Assembly (NCBI GenBank): GCA_019635485.1 | Contig: JAHBZL010000031.1 | Span: 1 to 62,482, forward strand | DNA from: Piscinibacter sp. | Lineage (GTDB): Bacteria; Pseudomonadota; Gammaproteobacteria; Burkholderiales; Burkholderiaceae_C | Direction: 5' to 3' | Length of the DNA: 62,482 bases | Shown: positions 48,834 to 56,824 of the stretch, piece by piece | Numbering within the stretch: position 1 is the first letter of the stretch | Layout: every line of letters begins with the position of its first letter | Translations under genes and position numbers: made by a program | The notes under the pieces: generated by a model | Database searches by the model: none | The model's input: only the letters and a program-made list of their open reading frames with translations | Told to the model about the DNA's origin: nothing

Positions 48834-49745
48834 TCAGCCCCGCAGCTCTCCGCGGCCTTTCAGGCGCATGCGGTTGGGCAGCGGCACGGAGCGGCGCAGC
48901 ACTTCCTCGCCGAGCCACACCGCGGAACGCCGTGCGCGCTGCGCCACGGCCTCAAGCGGGATCTGCTGGTAGTCGTCGTTGAACACCTCGAAGCTGTAGT
49001 CGCCGCGGTAGCCCAGGCGGTCCAGCCGCAGCACCAGGTCGGCGATCGCGTCGCTGTGCACGCCTTCGCCGGGGAAGACGCGGAAGTGGCGTGCCGTCGT
49101 CATCCGTTCCTCGAACGAGCGCACTTCGGTCCACATGAAGTCGGCGAGCTGCACGAGGAACAGCTTGTCCGGATCGATGATGTCCAGGTCGTCCAGCGGC
49201 GTCTTGCTCGCCACCGCGTGGTACGAGTCGAAACCGAGCCCGAGATTGGGCGCGTCGGCGCGGCACACCACGTCCCAGGCGGTGGTGAACTCGTTGATGG
49301 TGCGGCCCCACGAAAGGCCCTCGAAGGCCACCTTGATGTCCAACGGCACCGCCAGCATCGCGAGCTTGCGCAGGTCGCGCGCCATCGCGTCGAGGTCGGT
49401 GCTGGCATGGGTCGAGGTCGACGAACAGACCAGCAGCACACGGCAGTCCAGCGCCGCGCACATCTCGAGCATGTGCTTGGCGATGTCGACCTTGTAGTCG
49501 TGCAGGTGGCCGGGGAGTCCCTCGAAATCGCGCAGCACCTGGAATCCGGTGACACGCAGGCCGCTGGCCTTGACCTCGTCGACCGCGGCGCGCCAGCCGC
49601 GCTCGTGGCCGACCAGGTCGCGCGCCGACAGCATCACCTGCGAGAAGCCGCCGGCACGGATCGCCCGAAGCTTGGCCGCAAGCGGCCCCGCAAGCGTGAT
49701 GGTGTCCATGCCGAAGTCGTCGATGTTGCCCTGCAGTTGGCTCAT
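48834..49745 (-). CDS. 3-dehydroshikimate dehydratase, TIM-barrel half (QuiC1 N-domain-like)
   Basis: A 303-residue xylose-isomerase-like TIM barrel. The characterised bacterial QuiC1 enzymes convert 3-dehydroshikimate to protocatechuate with a metal bound by Glu, Asp, Gln and Glu in this domain. The matching residues here are E142 (VAFEGLSW), D173 (GFDSYHAV), Q199 (LVQLADFM) and E253 (SFEVFND). In QuiC1 this domain is fused to a C-terminal HPPD-like domain; here that domain is a separate gene lying upstream in the operon. It is the last gene of the operon. The ATG at 49745 is preceded by GAGGGG supplied by repeat R2. A sugar-phosphate isomerase of other specificity is the alternative. Confidence 0.85.
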   Translation of the reverse strand: MSQLQGNIDDFGMDTITLAGPLAAKLRAIRAGGFSQVMLSARDLVGHERGWRAAVDEVKASGLRVTGFQVLRDFEGLPGHLHDYKVDIAKHMLEMCAALDCRVLLVCSSTSTHASTDLDAMARDLRKLAMLAVPLDIKVAFEGLSWGRTINEFTTAWDVVCRADAPNLGLGFDSYHAVASKTPLDDLDIIDPDKLFLVQLADFMWTEVRSFEERMTTARHFRVFPGEGVHSDAIADLVLRLDRLGYRGDYSFEVFNDDYQQIPLEAVAQRARRSAVWLGEEVLRRSVPLPNRMRLKGRGELRG

Positions 49746-49852
49746 GTTCGCCCCTCGTCCGACGGGTACATCGGCCGGTCCCCCGAGGGGACGCGGGCCG
49801 GCTTGGGAGCGGCCCGGCGCCCGGCCCGCGACTGCGTGTCGATGGTCGTCAT
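49743..49852 (-). repeat. intergenic repeat family R2, copy b
   Basis: Segment of about 110 bp filling the gap between the VOC gene and the TIM-barrel gene. On the minus strand it runs from ATGACGACCAT to GAGGGGCGAACATG and resembles 23484-23594 in order and content of its motifs. It contains a spurious 36-codon reading frame starting at its ATG. Confidence 0.65.
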
Positions 49853-49858
49853 GCGGCG

Positions 49859-50734
49859 TCAACCGTGGTGCACCAGCTCGAACATCACCGTGCCCAGGTG
49901 GGCCTGCGTCAGCGCACCGCGTTCGCCGCTGTGCACGCCGGTGGATTCGACGAAGCCCATGCCGCGCGCGCGCAGCGCCTGCACCGCGGCCAGCACGTCG
50001 GGCGTGCCGAAGCCGATGCGCTGCAGCGACTCGTCGCCCTCGACGTCGAGGATGCCGGGCTCCGGCTCGATCAGCTGCAGGAAGAAGGTGCCGCACGGGC
50101 TCTTCAGCACCTTGCCCTTGGGCAGGATGCCGAAACGCTCATCGTCCGGCAATTCGGCGAAGCCGAACAGCTCCGCGTAGAACTCGCACCAGTCGGCCAT
50201 GCGGTCGGTGCCGATGTACTGGACCACGCCGAACCAGTGCAGGCCGGCCAGCGCGGGCGGATCCGGATCGACGGTCGGAATGCGCGTGAAATCCACGTCG
50301 TAGATCGAGAACTCGCGATGCCGGTCGACGAAGTAGATGCGGCTCGCCCCGACACCGTGGATCGCCGGGATGTTCAGCTCCATCACCTCCACATGGGTCG
50401 GCACGGCCCAGGCACCGCGCTCGAGCGCGCGCCGGTACGCGGCCGCCGCGTCGCGCACGCGCAGCGCGATCGCCGCGATCACCGGTGTCTCGGTCGGCTG
50501 CACGGCGCGGGGATGGTGGCTCACGTGCGCATTGATCACGATGTTCATGCCGCCCTGGCGGTACAGCAGCACCTCGCGCGAGCGGTGCCGCGCGACGGGG
50601 CGGAAGCCCATCATCTCCAGCACCTGGCCAAGTGCCTGGGGCCGGCTGGTCGCGTACTCGACGAATTCGATGCCGTCCAGGCCGAGCGGGTTGGCGGCGT
50701 CGGTCAGGATCTCGCGGTCGGGGGGAGCGGTCAT
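49859..50734 (-). CDS. VOC/HPPD-like protein (QuiC1 C-domain-like)
   Basis: A 291-residue protein of two vicinal-oxygen-chelate modules (about 15-155 and 160-290), like 4-hydroxyphenylpyruvate dioxygenase and the C-terminal domain of QuiC1-type dehydroshikimate dehydratases. GLDGIEFVEYAT opens module one; GLHWFGVVQYIGTDRMADWCEFYAELFGF in part (HWFGVVQYIG) opens module two. Of the His-His-Glu metal set of HPPD, H166 and E286 (MFELVHHG) are visible, but the second His position is R239 (SLQRIGFGT), so iron dioxygenase activity is doubtful. It probably supports the TIM-barrel dehydratase encoded next. Its start lies 29 bases after the AroE-like gene ends. Confidence 0.82.
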   Translation of the reverse strand: MTAPPDREILTDAANPLGLDGIEFVEYATSRPQALGQVLEMMGFRPVARHRSREVLLYRQGGMNIVINAHVSHHPRAVQPTETPVIAAIALRVRDAAAAYRRALERGAWAVPTHVEVMELNIPAIHGVGASRIYFVDRHREFSIYDVDFTRIPTVDPDPPALAGLHWFGVVQYIGTDRMADWCEFYAELFGFAELPDDERFGILPKGKVLKSPCGTFFLQLIEPEPGILDVEGDESLQRIGFGTPDVLAAVQALRARGMGFVESTGVHSGERGALTQAHLGTVMFELVHHG

Positions 50735-50762
50735 TCGATGGTCTCCTGCAATCGGGAGCGGA

Positions 50763-51599
50763 TCAGTACGCGAGCGTGGCCACCTCGCGCAGCACCTCGG
50801 CGGTGGTGCTCGGCAGGCCGAAGAACTCGAGGTAGGCCGGGATCTGCTCGAACAGCATGTCGGTGCCGACCTGGAAGCGGCAGCCGCGTTCGCGCGCCGC
50901 GGCGAGGAAGGCCGTCATCTCCTGCTTCATCACGACCTCGCCGACGAAGGTGCTGCCGGCCAGCCGGTCCATGTCGATCGGCAGCGGGTCGCCGGCGTTC
51001 ATGCCCAGCGGCGTGGCGTTGACGACCACGTCCCAGCCGGCCGGGTCGTTGCTGCCGGTGCGCACGTCGATCGCCGGGTAATGCGTCTTCAGGCGCTCGC
51101 CGAGCGACTCGGCCGATTCGGACCGTGCGTCGAAGAGGCCCATCGTGCCGACGTCCGCGGCGGCCAGCGATGCGGCGATCGCCGAGCCGACGCCGCCGCA
51201 GCCGACCACCAGCGCGCGCGCCCCGGTCAGCGCGACGCCCTTGCGCAGCAGGCCGCGCACGAAACCCTCGCCGTCGAACATGTCGCCGACCAGCCGGCCG
51301 GTGGCGTCGCGGCGGACGGCGTTGCAGCTGCCCGCGATGCGCACGGCGGGCGTCACCTCGTCGAGCAGGTCGACCACGCTGACCTTGTGCGGCATCGTGA
51401 TCAGCGCACCGGTGACGTTCTCCAGCGTGAACAGCGCGCGCAGGAAGTTCGTGAAGTGCTCGGGTCGGCAACCCATCGGCACGACCACGCAGTCCACGCC
51501 GGCGCGCTCGAAGTACGGGTTGTAGATCATCGGCGCCTTGAAGCTGTGCGTCGGCCAGCCGACGTGCGCGATGAAGGAGGTCCGGCCGCTGATGTTCAC
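50763..51599 (-). CDS. AroE-like shikimate/quinate dehydrogenase
   Basis: Predicted NAD(P)-dependent dehydrogenase of 278 residues in the shikimate 5-dehydrogenase family. Kept: catalytic Lys in ITMPHK (about 76-81), the Asp of MFDGEGF (NTDG.G in AroE), the dinucleotide motif VVGCGGVGSA (about 130-139) and VNATPLGM. Changed: the substrate-binding SxS motif is HSFKAP, so the second Ser is lost, and NTDG reads MFDG. This suggests a catabolic enzyme for shikimate, quinate or a relative, not the biosynthetic AroE. The start is GTG at 51599 with GGAGGGT before it. Fits between aroQ and the dehydratase genes. Confidence 0.85.
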   Translation of the reverse strand: MNISGRTSFIAHVGWPTHSFKAPMIYNPYFERAGVDCVVVPMGCRPEHFTNFLRALFTLENVTGALITMPHKVSVVDLLDEVTPAVRIAGSCNAVRRDATGRLVGDMFDGEGFVRGLLRKGVALTGARALVVGCGGVGSAIAASLAAADVGTMGLFDARSESAESLGERLKTHYPAIDVRTGSNDPAGWDVVVNATPLGMNAGDPLPIDMDRLAGSTFVGEVVMKQEMTAFLAAARERGCRFQVGTDMLFEQIPAYLEFFGLPSTTAEVLREVATLAY

Positions 51600-51610
51600 G
51601 CCACCCTCCG

Positions 51611-52051
51611 TCAGTGCGTGCCGACCGCGGACACCGCCGCCCGCAGCGCAAGCAGGTAGCTGTCGACGCCGAAGCCGGCGATCTGGCCACGCGCGATCGG
51701 CGCGATCACCGAATGGTGGCGAAACTCCTCGCGGGCATGGATGTTGGACATGTGCACCTCGACGATCGGGCACTTCAGGATCGCCAGCGCGTCGCGGATG
51801 CCGTAGCTGTAGTGCGTCCAGGCACCGGCGTTGATCAGCACGGCCGCCACGCCCTCGGCATGGGCGGCATGGATGCGCTCGGCCATCGCGCCTTCGAAGT
51901 TGGTCTGGAAGCACTCGACCTCGACACCCAGCTCGGCCGCCAGCGCGTGCAGCTTGGCGTCGATCTCGGCCAGCGTCGCGGTGCCGTACTGGGCCGGGTC
52001 GCGCTTGCCGAACATGTTGAGGTTGATGCCGTTGAGCACCAGGAATTTCAT
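51611..52051 (-). CDS. aroQ: type II 3-dehydroquinate dehydratase, catabolic
   Basis: Small dodecameric dehydratase (146 residues) that interconverts 3-dehydroquinate and 3-dehydroshikimate. Kept: LNGINLNMFGKRDPAQYG (loop Arg18 and catalytic Tyr23), the Glu loop NFEGAMAERIH, NAG and the catalytic His in NAGAWTHYSYGIRDAL, and EVHMSNIHAREEFRHHS. Against biosynthetic enzymes the TS of THTSVALRDA is YS/YGIRDA, which marks a divergent subgroup. In this operon the flow would be from quinate-derived dehydroquinate to dehydroshikimate. Its start lies 9 bases after the Gfo/Idh gene ends and 11 bases separate it from the AroE-like gene. Confidence 0.92.
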   Translation of the reverse strand: MKFLVLNGINLNMFGKRDPAQYGTATLAEIDAKLHALAAELGVEVECFQTNFEGAMAERIHAAHAEGVAAVLINAGAWTHYSYGIRDALAILKCPIVEVHMSNIHAREEFRHHSVIAPIARGQIAGFGVDSYLLALRAAVSAVGTH

Positions 52052-52060
52052 CGGGTTCTC

Positions 52061-53110
52061 CTAGGAAACGAGTTCGATTCTGCGACCGGTGCGGGCCGCT
52101 TCGGCGATCGCCTCGGTGACGCGCAGGTTGGCCAGGCCGTCACGCGCGGACACGAGCGGCGCGGCCTCGCCGCGGACCACCGCGCCGAAGTGCGCCATCT
52201 GGCGCACGATCGGGTCCTCGCGCACCAGGCCGACGACACCGACCTCGAACGGCTTCCACCACGAGCGTGCTTCCGGCCGCGCATAGGTGTGCAGCCGCAT
52301 CGTCGGCACCGCGAGGCTGCCGTTGGTGCCGGTGACGACGTAGCAGTCCTGGTCGTCGTGGGTCGGGTAGGCCGGGTTCTCGCGCGAGGTCTGCTCCCAG
52401 CTGCGCGGGCAGGCCGCGGTGTCGCTGAGCAGGAAGCTGCCGAGCGCGCCGCCCGCGAACTGCAGGTTGATCGCCACGGTGTCCTCGACCGCGAAGCCGC
52501 GCACCGCGCTCGACGCGATCGCCTGCACCGCGACGATCTCGCCGGCCAGCAGGCGCAGGTTGTGCACCTCGTGGATCATGTTCAGCAGGATCGGCCCGCC
52601 GTCGGGCTCGCGGCGCCACGGTCCGTCGGCGAAGTAGCTGTCGGGCTTCAGGAAGGTCGCGCTGCCCATCACCGCGACCAGCCGGCCGAGCACGCCCGAA
52701 TCGACCACCTGGCGCGCCTTGGCCATGATCGGGCTGTGCGCGCGGTGGTGGCCGATCAGCACCGGCGTGCCCCCTGACTCGGCGGCGCGCACCAGCGTCT
52801 CCGCTTCCGCCACGGTCACCGCGATCGGCTTCTCCAGCAGCGTCGGCAACCCGGCCCGCAGGCAGCGCAGCGCCTGCTCGACGTGCAGCGCGTTCGGCGT
52901 CGCGAGCACGACACCGTCGGGCCGGTCGCGCTCGATCAGCTGATCGAGCGTCGCGTGGCAGGGCACGCCGGCGCGCGCCGCGATCGCTGCCGCCGCCGGT
53001 GCCGGGTCGACGATCGCCGACAGCACCAGGCCGGCCGTGGCCTGGACGGCAGCGATGTGGGCCTGGCCGATGTAGCCGGCCCCGGCGACCGCGATGCGGC
53101 TGCGAGTCAC
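52061..53110 (-). CDS. Gfo/Idh/MocA-family NAD(P) oxidoreductase
   Basis: Predicted NAD(P)-dependent dehydrogenase of 349 residues. The Rossmann N-terminus has AVAGAGYIGQAH (about 6-17); the catalytic motif is LLEKPIAVT (about 91-99, EKP lysine); and the second domain has a His-rich active-site helix NMIHEVHNLRLLAG (about 176-189) in the place of the usual DxGxHxxD. Members oxidise or reduce sugars and cyclitols such as inositol. Quinate is a cyclitol-like acid, so quinate dehydrogenase is a reasonable guess in this operon, which otherwise has no quinate oxidising enzyme. The ATG overlaps the dctP stop by four bases. Confidence 0.85.
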   Translation of the reverse strand: MTRSRIAVAGAGYIGQAHIAAVQATAGLVLSAIVDPAPAAAAIAARAGVPCHATLDQLIERDRPDGVVLATPNALHVEQALRCLRAGLPTLLEKPIAVTVAEAETLVRAAESGGTPVLIGHHRAHSPIMAKARQVVDSGVLGRLVAVMGSATFLKPDSYFADGPWRREPDGGPILLNMIHEVHNLRLLAGEIVAVQAIASSAVRGFAVEDTVAINLQFAGGALGSFLLSDTAACPRSWEQTSRENPAYPTHDDQDCYVVTGTNGSLAVPTMRLHTYARPEARSWWKPFEVGVVGLVREDPIVRQMAHFGAVVRGEAAPLVSARDGLANLRVTEAIAEAARTGRRIELVS

Positions 53111-54114
53111 TTGCGCAGCTTCGCCAGTTCGGCCTGCACTTCCTGCACCGTGGCTTCGCCGACCTTCTCGGAGTGCTTGGCGATCACCGGCTTCATCTTC
53201 TCGCGGAACTTCGCGATCTCGGCCGGCGGGAATTCCGTGACGGTCATGCCGTTCTTCTTCAGCGTCTCGAGCGCGGTGTTCATCATCGCGCGCGACTGCT
53301 CGCGCTCGTACTTGGCGGCCTCGTCGGCCGCGTCGTCGAGCAGCTTCTTCTCGGCCGGGCTCAGCGTGTCCCAGATCTTCTTGCTGAAGATCACCGACTG
53401 CGGGTTGTACTGGTGGTTGGTGATCGCCACGTACTTCTGCACCTCCCAGAACTTGTTGGCCGCGATCACGGTCAGCGGGTTCTCCTGGCCGTCGATGGCC
53501 TTCTGCTCGAGCGCGGCATAGACCTCGGGGAACGGCAGCGGCGTCGGGTTGGCGCCCAGCGCCTTGACCCAGTCGACGTTGATCGGGTTCGGGATCACGC
53601 GCAGCTTCAGGCCGTCGATGTCCTCGACCTTGTTCAGCGGCCGCTTGCTGTTCGTGATCTGGCGGAACCCCAGCTCCCAGAACGACAGGCCGACGAGCCC
53701 CTTTTCCTCCAGCTTGGCGTGCAGCTTCTTGCCGACCGCGCTGTCGACCAGACCGTCGGCCTCCTTGGCGTTGGCGAACAGGAACGGGAAGTCGAAGATC
53801 GCGAGTTCCTTGGCGACGCTGGCCAGGATGCCGGTGTTCATCACCACCATCTCCAGCGTGCCACCCTGGGCCGCCGACACGTTGGCCTGGTCGCTGCCGA
53901 GCTGGCCGCCGGGGAACAGGTTGATCTTGATCTTGCCGCCCGACTTGGCCGCGACGATCTCGGCGAACTTCTTCATCCCCAGCGCCACCGGGTGGCCCTC
54001 GGGGTTCTGGGTCGCGAACTTGAAGGTGTGCTCCTTGATGTCCTGGGCCTGCGACACGCCGCAGACGGCGAGCACGATGGCGGCGGCGAGGGTCTTGAGC
54101 ATCAGTCTTTTCAT
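53107..54114 (-). CDS. dctP: TRAP transporter substrate-binding protein (DctP family)
   Basis: Periplasmic binding protein of 335 residues with a signal peptide (MKRLMLKTLAAAIVLAVCGV, cleavage after SQA at about 23). The mature part starts QDIKEHTFKFATQNPEGHPV. Typical DctP features are visible: PGGQLGSDQ (about 72-80), the substrate-carboxylate Arg in GLKLRVIPNP (about 154-163) and AALEQKAIDGQENP (about 188-201). The ligand should be an organic anion; quinate, shikimate or dehydroshikimate are inferred from the downstream enzymes. It is the third gene of the operon (dctQ, dctM, dctP), coupled to the Gfo/Idh gene by ATGA. Confidence 0.92.
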   Translation of the reverse strand: MKRLMLKTLAAAIVLAVCGVSQAQDIKEHTFKFATQNPEGHPVALGMKKFAEIVAAKSGGKIKINLFPGGQLGSDQANVSAAQGGTLEMVVMNTGILASVAKELAIFDFPFLFANAKEADGLVDSAVGKKLHAKLEEKGLVGLSFWELGFRQITNSKRPLNKVEDIDGLKLRVIPNPINVDWVKALGANPTPLPFPEVYAALEQKAIDGQENPLTVIAANKFWEVQKYVAITNHQYNPQSVIFSKKIWDTLSPAEKKLLDDAADEAAKYEREQSRAMMNTALETLKKNGMTVTEFPPAEIAKFREKMKPVIAKHSEKVGEATVQEVQAELAKLRK

Positions 54115-54139
54115 GGGTGTCTCCGGTCGGGGTGGGAAA

Positions 54140-55420
54140 TCAGCGGTAGAAGAAGTTCAGCGGGGCGAGCACGAGCTGCGGGAACGCGACGAGCAGGAAC
54201 AGCACGATGAGCTGCGCCGCCATGAAGGGCAGCACGCCGCGCGCGACATGCTCCATCTTCATGCGGCCGACGCCGGCCACGACGTTGAGCACCGTGCCGA
54301 CCGGCGGCGTGACCAGCCCGATCACGCCGTTGATGACGAACAGCACGCCGAAGTAGATCGGGTCGATGCCGGCCGCCTTGACCACCGGCACCATCACCGG
54401 GGCGAGGATCAGGATGGTGGGCGTCAGGTCCATCGCCATGCCCACCAGCAGCAGCACGACCATCAGGATCACGAGCAGCAACGTCGGGCTGTCCATGAAC
54501 GGCCGCAGCAGTTCGATCAGCTGGGCCGGCAGGTTGGCGATCGTGATCAGCCAGGCACTGACCGCCGCGGCGGCCACCAGGAACATGATGATCGCGGTGG
54601 TCTTGGACGCGGCCACGAACACGCCGTAGAGCTGGCGCAGCGTCATCTCGCGATAGACCACGGTCGCGACGAACAGCGCGTAGACCGCTGCCACCACGGC
54701 CGCCTCGGTGGGCGTGAACACGCCCGCCTTCAGGCCGACCAGCACGATCACCGGCAGCACCAGCGCCCAGGTCGAGTCGCGCAGCGCCTTGAAGCGCTCC
54801 GCGCCGCTCGCCTTCGGCGCCGGCACGACGCCTTCGCGGCGCGCCGACAGCCACCAGGCGATCGCGATCGAGACGCCCATCAGGATGCCCGGCACGATGC
54901 CGGCCATGAACAGCTTGCCGATCGACAGGTTCGCGGTGACGCCGAAGATCACGAACGGGATCGATGGCGGGATGATCGGCGCGATGATCCCGGAGGTGGC
55001 GATCAGGCCGCCGGCGCGGCGCGGGTCGTGGCCGGCCTTGGCCATCATCGGCAGCAGCAGCGCCGTCAGCGCGGCCGTGTCGGCCACCGCCGAGCCGGAC
55101 AGCGAGGCCATCAGGCAGGCGGCGATGATGGTCACGTAGCCGAGCCCGCCGCGCACGTGCCCGACCAGCGCCAGCGCGAGGTTCACGATGCGCTTGGACA
55201 GCCCGCCGACGTTCATGATCTCGCCGGCCAGCATGAAGAACGGCACCGCCAGCAGCGGGAAGCTGTTCGCTCCCTCGATCACGTTCTGCGCCAGGATCTG
55301 CGCGTCGAAGGTGTTCAGGTGGATCATCAGCGCCACGCCCGAGAGCAGCAGCGCGTACGCGATCGGGATGCCCAGTGCGATGGCGCCGATCAGCGCGACG
55401 AGGAAGATGGCGATCGTCAT
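54140..55420 (-). CDS. dctM: TRAP transporter large permease (DctM family)
   Basis: Sodium-driven permease of 426 residues with 11-12 helices. It begins TIAIFLVALIGAIALGIPIAYALLLSG (first helix, split as FLVALIGAIAL and GIPIAYALLL). Family marks include FPLLAVPFFMLAGEIMNVGG (about 55-74), SLSGSAVADTAALTALLLPMM in part (GSAVADTAALT), ATSGIIAPIIPPSIPFVIFG in part (IAPIIPPSIP) and a C-terminal GLVTPPVGTVLNVV. Second gene of the operon, 15 bases after dctQ. Confidence 0.93.
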   Translation of the reverse strand: MTIAIFLVALIGAIALGIPIAYALLLSGVALMIHLNTFDAQILAQNVIEGANSFPLLAVPFFMLAGEIMNVGGLSKRIVNLALALVGHVRGGLGYVTIIAACLMASLSGSAVADTAALTALLLPMMAKAGHDPRRAGGLIATSGIIAPIIPPSIPFVIFGVTANLSIGKLFMAGIVPGILMGVSIAIAWWLSARREGVVPAPKASGAERFKALRDSTWALVLPVIVLVGLKAGVFTPTEAAVVAAVYALFVATVVYREMTLRQLYGVFVAASKTTAIIMFLVAAAAVSAWLITIANLPAQLIELLRPFMDSPTLLLVILMVVLLLVGMAMDLTPTILILAPVMVPVVKAAGIDPIYFGVLFVINGVIGLVTPPVGTVLNVVAGVGRMKMEHVARGVLPFMAAQLIVLFLLVAFPQLVLAPLNFFYR

Positions 55421-55435
55421 GGCCTGCTCCCCGGC

Positions 55436-56020
55436 TCAGCGATCGGACGCCGAGCCGCCGTCGCGGCGCTCGAACGCACGCGCCTCGGCCTGCGCCTCGG
55501 CACCCTCGCAGGCATGGTGCTGGGCGATCACCTGCCCCGGCGTCAGTTCGCCGCGCAGCGTGCGCCACAGGTCACTGCCCAGCATCAGCGCGGTCGAGAC
55601 CGAGAACACGAGGCCCGTTGCATAGACCCAGGCCATCGAGAAGCCGGTCACCGGCGCCTCGGCATCCCAGTTGATGCGCGTCTGCGCCAGGCTGCCGGAG
55701 AACATCAGCCAGGTCACCCACAGCATCAGCCCCTGGCCGAGCACCAGCACGGCCTTCTGCGCACCCTGCGGCATGCGCTCGAGCAGCAGTTCGGTGCCCA
55801 TGTGGGCGCGCTCGCGCACCGCGACGGTGGCGCCCAGGAACACCAGCCACAGGAACAGCCAGCGCGACATCTCCTCGGACACGGCGATGCCGGAATTGAA
55901 GCCGTAGCGCAGCACCACGTTGCCGAACACCATGGCCACCATCACCGCCAGCAGCAGCACGAGCACGGCCTCCAGCAGCCGGCAATAGGCGGCCAGGGCC
56001 TTGTCGATCGAGTGGGTCAC
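55436..56020 (-). CDS. dctQ: TRAP transporter small permease (DctQ family)
   Basis: Small integral membrane subunit of 194 residues with four helices. The DctQ mark is VSEEMSRWLFLWLVFLGATVAVRERAHMGTELL, visible as EEMSRWLFLWLVF (about 45-57) and RERAHMG. The C-terminal 40 residues are hydrophilic (Glu/Ala-rich) and longer than usual. Translation starts at GTG (56018-56020) with AGGAGA 8 bases upstream. First gene of the operon, about 50 bases downstream of a TetR-type operator. Confidence 0.9.
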   Translation of the reverse strand: MTHSIDKALAAYCRLLEAVLVLLLAVMVAMVFGNVVLRYGFNSGIAVSEEMSRWLFLWLVFLGATVAVRERAHMGTELLLERMPQGAQKAVLVLGQGLMLWVTWLMFSGSLAQTRINWDAEAPVTGFSMAWVYATGLVFSVSTALMLGSDLWRTLRGELTPGQVIAQHHACEGAEAQAEARAFERRDGGSASDR

Positions 56021-56137: not shown

Positions 56138-56824
56138 CTACTTCCGGACGAACCGGACGATCATCTCGACGATCGAGTCGCGCCGCGCCACGATGGCCGC
56201 GGGCGAGTCGAGGTCGCGCTTGAAGATCAGCGAGAAGGTGTGCTTGTTGGCGACGTTGAACAGCGACAGCGCCGAGATCGACATGTGCAGGTCGACGGCG
56301 TCGATGCCGCTGCGGAACACGCCGGCGGCGAGGCCGCGTTCGTAGACGCGGCGCACGGCGTCGATGGCCGGCACGTTCAGGCGCTGGATCACGTCGCTGC
56401 GCGCCAGGTACTCGCCGCGGTGGATGTTCTCCGTCATCACCAGCCGGGTGAAATCGGGATGCCCGAGGTGGTAGTCGACCGTCGAGCCGACCAGCTTGCG
56501 CAGCGCGTCCTCGGGCGCCAGGTCCTCCAGGTGCAGCAGCGCCTCGGTTTCGCGGATGCGCCGGTACTCCTGCTCGAGGACAGCGATGTACAGGCCCTCC
56601 TTGCTGCCGAAGTAGTAGTAGATCATCCGCTTGCTGGTGCGGGTGGCCTCGGCGATCAGGTCGACACGCGCCCCCGCCAGCCCCTTCTCGGCGAACTCGC
56701 GCGTGGCCGCCTCGAGGATCTCCGCGCGGGTGCGTTCCGGGTCGTTGGTGCGGCCCGGCTCGCCGCGGGCGGTCGCCAGCCCTCGCGTCACGGGCGTCGG
56801 CGCTGAATGTACTGGTTCGTTCAT
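56138..56824 (-). CDS. TetR-family regulator of the quinate/shikimate operon
   Basis: Repressor of 228 residues. The helix-turn-helix lies at about 30-75: ILEAATREFAEKGLAGARVDLIAEATRTSKRMIYYYFGSKEGLY, landmarks ILEAATREFAEKG and RTSKRMIYYYFGSKEGLY. The C-terminal domain follows the TetR_C pattern of regulators of aromatic catabolism (YHLGHPDFTRLVMTENIHRGEYL). The ATG at 56824 is supported by a -10 box whose expected start falls on that A, so the mRNA is probably leaderless. It is transcribed towards the TRAP operon, with 117 bases and the operator between. Likely effector: an operon intermediate. Confidence 0.88.
   Translation of the reverse strand: MNEPVHSAPTPVTRGLATARGEPGRTNDPERTRAEILEAATREFAEKGLAGARVDLIAEATRTSKRMIYYYFGSKEGLYIAVLEQEYRRIRETEALLHLEDLAPEDALRKLVGSTVDYHLGHPDFTRLVMTENIHRGEYLARSDVIQRLNVPAIDAVRRVYERGLAAGVFRSGIDAVDLHMSISALSLFNVANKHTFSLIFKRDLDSPAAIVARRDSIVEMIVRFVRK
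56806..56821. promoter_or_regulatory. TetR operator at its own start codon
   Basis: AATGTACTGGTTCGTT shares AATGTACT and GTTCGTT with the operator at 56070-56089, but without the extra 4 bases of its centre. It covers the first codons of the regulator gene and the predicted transcript start, which fits autorepression. Confidence 0.5.

Follow-up and report, generated by a model that had tools for sequence, protein, structure and literature searches.

The closest described systems are the two-domain 3-dehydroshikimate dehydratases (DSDs) QuiC1 (5hmq) and QsuB, single chains with an N-terminal TIM barrel and a C-terminal HPPD-like domain. According to the available part of the QsuB study (PMC7442255), removal of the C-terminal domain leaves the enzyme active, with an approximately threefold lower kcat and a twofold lower Km, alters product inhibition, and turns the octamer into a monomer; no activity of this domain on protocatechuate was seen, and a role in oligomerization was proposed. 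The single-domain DSDs AsbF and fungal Qa-4 are stand-alone barrels, and the accessible portion of the report on them (PMC9324987) describes no dedicated HPPD-like partner gene. No description of a two-gene QuiC1 was found in the open-licence literature, covered mostly at the title and abstract level. The locus reported here resembles QuiC1 and QsuB, so far as the excerpts of their description go, in having a barrel homologous to the N-terminal domain with the same metal residues, an HPPD-like partner and a quinate/shikimate context, and it has the stand-alone barrel in common with AsbF and Qa-4. It differs from the two-domain enzymes in that barrel and partner are encoded by two genes, with the HPPD-like gene first, that the barrel belongs to a separate clade, and that the partner is shorter, lacks the iron-binding His residues and is nearer to HPPD.

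The analyzed window is a stretch of 62,482 nucleotides from Piscinibacter sp. (contig JAHBZL010000031.1), of which positions 48834 to 56020 carry, on the minus strand, an eight-gene operon (dctQ-dctM-dctP-Gfo-aroQ-aroE-VOC-TIM) running head to tail from 56020 down to 48834. An earlier note on this DNA had described the same eight genes on one strand, and both the positions and the Pfam families agree. The TRAP transporter comprises the small permease DctQ (55436..56020), the large permease DctM (54140..55420) and the solute-binding subunit DctP (53107..54114), each recognized by the Pfam family of that name and by NCBIfam. They are followed by a Gfo/Idh/MocA oxidoreductase (52061..53110; Pfam GFO_IDH_MocA), whose best NCBIfam match, IolG, reaches 115 bits, under the cut-off of 355, and by the type II 3-dehydroquinate dehydratase AroQ (51611..52051; Pfam DHquinase_II), which scores 187 bits with TIGR01088, above the cut-off of 170. 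The AroE-like quinate/shikimate dehydrogenase (50763..51602, with a start codon of our choice; Pfam Shikimate_dh_N) has 135 bits with the aroE model, below the cut-off of 200. Its protein contains GDMFDG where other AroE-like rows show G-NTD, a feature common to most AroE-like genes of these clusters. The last two genes encode an HPPD-like VOC protein (49859..50734; Pfam Glyoxalase_5, the HPPD N-terminal family) and a TIM-barrel protein (48834..49745; Pfam AP_endonuc_2), a probable DSD by its likeness to the QuiC1 N-domain; their lengths of 291 and 303 amino acids are as previously given. A TetR-family regulator gene (56138..56824, minus strand; Pfam) lies just upstream of dctQ, beyond the range of the earlier note, and accompanies the TRAP genes in relatives.

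The genes had been called tightly packed, which holds for the first seven, separated by 15, 25, −4, 9, 8 and 28 bases from dctQ to VOC, but not for the VOC-barrel junction, where the gap measures 113 bases (49746..49858). Within this gap, positions 49749 to 49829 are occupied by a dispersed repeat of ~80 bases with at least 44 matches in the same genome, itself counted, 40 of 95 candidates having been scored. In 30 VOC-barrel pairs, counting that of the window, this gap has a median of 3 bases and ranges from −4 to 834; nine of these pairs overlap by 4 bases, and the gap of 834 bases contains an AroE-like gene.

The best PDB match of the barrel is the N-domain of QuiC1 5hmq (132 bits), followed by IolI (45 bits); an AsbF chain is absent from its five PDB hits at E values up to 1. 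The NCBIfam QuiC model matches over positions 5 to 268 with 154 bits, under its whole-protein cut-off of 1200, and in place of the single chain of QuiC1 there are two genes in the opposite order. As claimed in the earlier note, the four metal residues E142, D173, Q199 and E253 are present, and they align with the same residues in QuiC1 N-domains. The E-D-Q-E tetrad is found in the window barrel and in 29 of 32 rows from its relatives; among the matches listed for a second set of named loci, 65 of 80 barrel rows (the window plus 79 rows from 78 loci) keep the tetrad; of the others, 12 carry substitutions and 3 are partial. The barrel alignment contains 41 invariant columns; identity reaches 90% or more at 24 of them in 58 fused QuiC1 N-domains, as against 12 in eight other isomerase-like barrels. 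A barrel unrelated to QuiC1, which would have refuted the earlier note, was not what emerged.

A tree of 101 barrels unites the 30 split ones in a single group (support, 87) that adjoins the fused QuiC1 N-domains; they are a clade of their own and do not fall within that of the N-domains. A tree that forces them together with 11 Burkholderiales QuiC1 N-domains is worse by 115 log units and is rejected (AU p, 1.5e-5; L284 was taken out before this test). Barrel row set A2 held 28 of the 32 rows (L063, L064, L073 and L078 omitted), and VOC row set A1 held 29 of 31 (L064 and L066 omitted). The AU constraints used here and for the VOC protein covered these Burkholderiales groupings, which were named after the first tree had been seen. 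Stand-alone barrels without a VOC neighbor also occur, namely L100 (G027), L092 (G146, beside a fused QuiC1), L231 and L232. The L100 barrel (L100:9637-10503) has intact metal residues, and its cluster also includes AroQ and two AroE-like genes.

Among solved structures, the VOC protein is closest to HPPD (1cjx; 139 bits), ahead of the QuiC1 C-domain of 5hmq (81 bits), and its mean identity is 34% to HPPD versus 25% to QuiC1 C-domains. It differs from HPPD in the iron site: in the window, G169 and R239 replace both His ligands and E286 is kept. Both His residues are replaced in 31 of 31 VOC relatives, all of which keep the Glu; in HPPD both His are present in 25 of 25 sequences and the Glu in 24, while in 58 QuiC1 C-domains the two His are present in 57 and 49 and the Glu in all. 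Among the matches listed for the named set, with the window, both His are lost in 81 of 81 VOC rows, and the Glu is found in 79 and gapped in two. The VOC protein also lacks the C-terminal tail as well as ~30 residues ahead of the last ligand: the median span from the second His position to the Glu is 47 residues, compared with 77 in QuiC1 C-domains and 80 in HPPD, and the median tail is 7 residues, compared with 33 and 35, respectively. Residues F168, G169, Q172, R239 and E286 are invariant in 31 of 31 sequences. Because it is unable to bind iron in the manner of HPPD, the VOC protein is probably a dedicated, non-catalytic partner of the barrel. The QsuB C-domain results, as far as they are given in the accessible part of that study (PMC7442255), are in keeping with a partner devoid of an iron site.

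Phylogenetically, the VOC protein is nested within HPPD in one tree and stands beside HPPD in another, and AU tests of its relation to the HPPD clade gave 0.44, for the joint tree described below, and 0.81. Grouping it with eight Burkholderiales QuiC1 C-domains costs 85 log units and is rejected (AU p, 0.00026). A tree joining VOC and QuiC1 C-domains against HPPD is not rejected (AU p, 0.44) and has the better score when the N-terminal half is taken by itself. The tree with VOC beside HPPD and those behind the AU rejection and the N-terminal-half analysis used 63 of 114 rows. A recruitment of the VOC partner independent of the QuiC1 C-domain is favored by identity; since the placement varies and the joint tree is not rejected, it is only possible.

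VOC orthologs (identity, 52 to 100%) are present in 31 of 149 genomes, the window's own included, clearly set apart from HPPDs, which reach at most 47%. Across the phylum, at least 5 of 398 genomes (own included) have VOC, all from the same family or order, whereas nearly full-length matches to the QuiC model number at least 66, in 65 of these genomes. Named loci among the matches listed include Piscinibacter, Sphaerotilus, Polaromonas, Ramlibacter, Acidovorax, Limnohabitans and Azohydromonas, the nearest named relative among them being Piscinibacter defluvii SH-1 (VOC, 93%). Of 80 named loci among the matches listed, 78 have a barrel open reading frame behind VOC in the same orientation; in the two exceptions, L148 and L171, the contig ends at that point. 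The VOC-then-barrel order is therefore general. By tblastn over half the barrel length, a barrel is found in 77 of these 80 listed loci. The named loci and the relatives are partly the same (e.g., L101/G003 and L151/G029), and counts from the two sets are therefore not independent. No avoidance between the pair and fused QuiC1 was seen among the 149 genomes, of which 31 have VOC, 10 a fused QuiC1 and 4 both (G029, G051, G059 and G073). In G051, a near-identical TRAP-Gfo-AroQ operon contains a fused QuiC1 in which the C-domain no longer has its second His (L071:5056-6918), with the VOC-barrel pair ~6 kb away.

The earlier note had read the pair as a QuiC1 divided between two genes whose order is reversed, with the HPPD-like gene as the freed C-domain. 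Such a division and reordering would account for the adjacency of the same two fold types and for the match of both parts to the QuiC model, but we regard it as very improbable: the barrels form a clade outside fused QuiC1, the AU tests reject the respective groupings of both barrel and VOC, the VOC protein is nearer to HPPD and is devoid of the His ligands that QuiC1 C-domains retain, as well as of their 30-residue stretch and tail, and the pair coexists with a fused QuiC1 in the four genomes named above. We accordingly dismissed a split QuiC1 on the trees and on the residues, and the VOC-barrel pair looks like a sister lineage of the two-domain enzyme rather than a broken QuiC1. An ancient pairing of a barrel with an HPPD-like protein might predate QuiC1, one line having fused them and the other having left them as separate genes, with loss of the iron site; this is conceivable but tentative, as the unrejected joint tree of VOC and QuiC1 C-domains and its better score on the N-terminal half speak for it, and the greater proximity of VOC to HPPD, together with the near-basal (weakly supported) position of the stand-alone barrels L092, L100 and L232 with respect to both barrel clades, speaks against it. 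Alternatively, and somewhat more doubtfully, DSD barrels might have gained an HPPD-type partner twice, once in the QuiC1 fusion and a second time as an upstream gene of its own, its iron site and tail removed; in about a dozen lineages whose barrel has lost its metal as well, with both genes still constrained, the pair would then have another function, independent of either metal site.

The neighboring genes suggest a catabolic context. Among the matches listed, an AroE-type gene is near 51 of 80 named loci, AroQ near 27 and either near 55, and 25 loci, some on short contigs, have neither; a TRAP permease is near 35 and a Liv-type ATPase near 27. A LigB, PcaGH or PcaB-like gene lies near 20 of these 80 listed loci, all neighbor counts being raw frequencies. 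Example LigA, PcaG, PcaH, PcaI and PcaF proteins pass curated cut-offs, and PcaB-like neighbors score below theirs. The genome of the window has adjacent LigA and LigB genes on two contigs, with one LigA above the curated cut-off. No fused QuiC1 was found in it, a weak absence because the genome is 84% complete. At other loci (L063:3024-8700, L067, L069, L072, L074, L076 and L077), a Liv-type ABC transporter operon, accompanied by a divergently oriented IclR gene, frequently precedes the pair.

The most economical reading of these sequence data is a route from quinate or shikimate through 3-dehydroshikimate and protocatechuate to 4,5-cleavage. The TRAP transporter would import quinate/shikimate-type acids; the AroE-like enzyme, perhaps the Gfo/Idh/MocA protein, and AroQ would carry out oxidation and dehydration to 3-dehydroshikimate; the stand-alone barrel would convert the latter to protocatechuate with a divalent metal at E142, D173, Q199 and E253, as in the QuiC1 N-domain; and LigAB 4,5-dioxygenase, encoded elsewhere in the genome, would open the ring. 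The HPPD-like partner would most likely stabilize or regulate the barrel in trans. Of the pathway proposed earlier, from uptake via dehydroshikimate to protocatechuate, the quinate/shikimate-type operon and a probable route stand, given the AroE and AroQ genes, LigAB and nearby Pca-type genes, but the AroE-like and Gfo proteins are under their cut-offs, and the operon substrate is therefore not fixed. The operon might instead serve a related compound, a different cyclic acid that the barrel isomerizes or dehydrates. This is unlikely, even with MFD in place of NTD in the AroE-like protein, a Gfo/Idh/MocA gene, transporters that vary between Liv-type and TRAP, and metal loss in 12 pairs among the matches listed; against it are QuiC1 as the best relative of the barrel, the LigAB/Pca genes near a quarter of the listed loci, and AroQ, which makes 3-dehydroquinate and 3-dehydroshikimate likely intermediates. 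We find it still harder to credit that the VOC protein has enzymatic activity of its own, at a new active site without iron: its five invariant residues would suit one, but no match suggests a reaction, and the QsuB C-domain was inactive on protocatechuate in the accessible part of that study (PMC7442255). A function as the DSD that feeds protocatechuate is the best-supported role for the barrel. From the genes, their order, conservation, residues and tree placement, we consider it likely that this is a quinate/shikimate operon with a barrel DSD and a non-catalytic partner of a lineage sister to QuiC1, in which the substrate, the reaction, a complex and the role of the partner are the proposed elements.

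In the 12 named pairs among the matches listed whose barrel metal ligands are substituted, the reading frame is still open. The barrels of L141, L144, L129, L149 and L159, for example, are without the metal tetrad, open and still constrained, and VOC is retained. Fused QuiC1 was compared in 50 of the 80 listed named loci, consisting of all 12 degenerate pairs and 38 hand-picked intact ones, mostly on longer loci or from isolates: a full-length fused QuiC1 is present in 5 of 12 degenerate versus 3 of 38 intact genomes (Fisher p, 0.014; counting a QuiC1-like piece at a contig end in the L129 genome lowers it to 0.003). Corrected for kinship, the association comes down to five independent pairs and is not significant, significance being out of reach with so few. 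Decay of the barrel alongside fused QuiC1 fits one shared job. Six of the 12 degenerate genomes, including the complete genome of L153, show no fused QuiC1, and the pair may therefore do something else there. Among the relatives, degenerate pairs occur in G024, without a fused QuiC1, and in G029 and G059, both with one; the pairs of G051 and G073 are intact and coexist with fused QuiC1. The dN/dS values, estimated by NG86 for 12 pairs of loci that we picked and rough, as several dS values exceed 1, are 0.25 to 0.56 for degenerate barrels in four comparisons and below 0.25 for intact barrels in seven of eight, one being undefined. Degenerate barrels are therefore not simply drifting freely. The barrel is less conserved than VOC in all four degenerate comparisons, and it is conserved as much as or more than VOC in six of the eight intact ones.

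An HPPD-like partner without an iron site bears on the question of what the HPPD-like domain of QuiC1 does, and since it is here a separate protein that can be added or omitted in trans, this question becomes directly testable. If an HPPD-type partner was indeed gained twice, its job would be structural or regulatory. The barrels would add a stand-alone line of bacterial catabolic DSDs for protocatechuate production, one that current models would miss, as the curated QuiC model stays under its cut-off.
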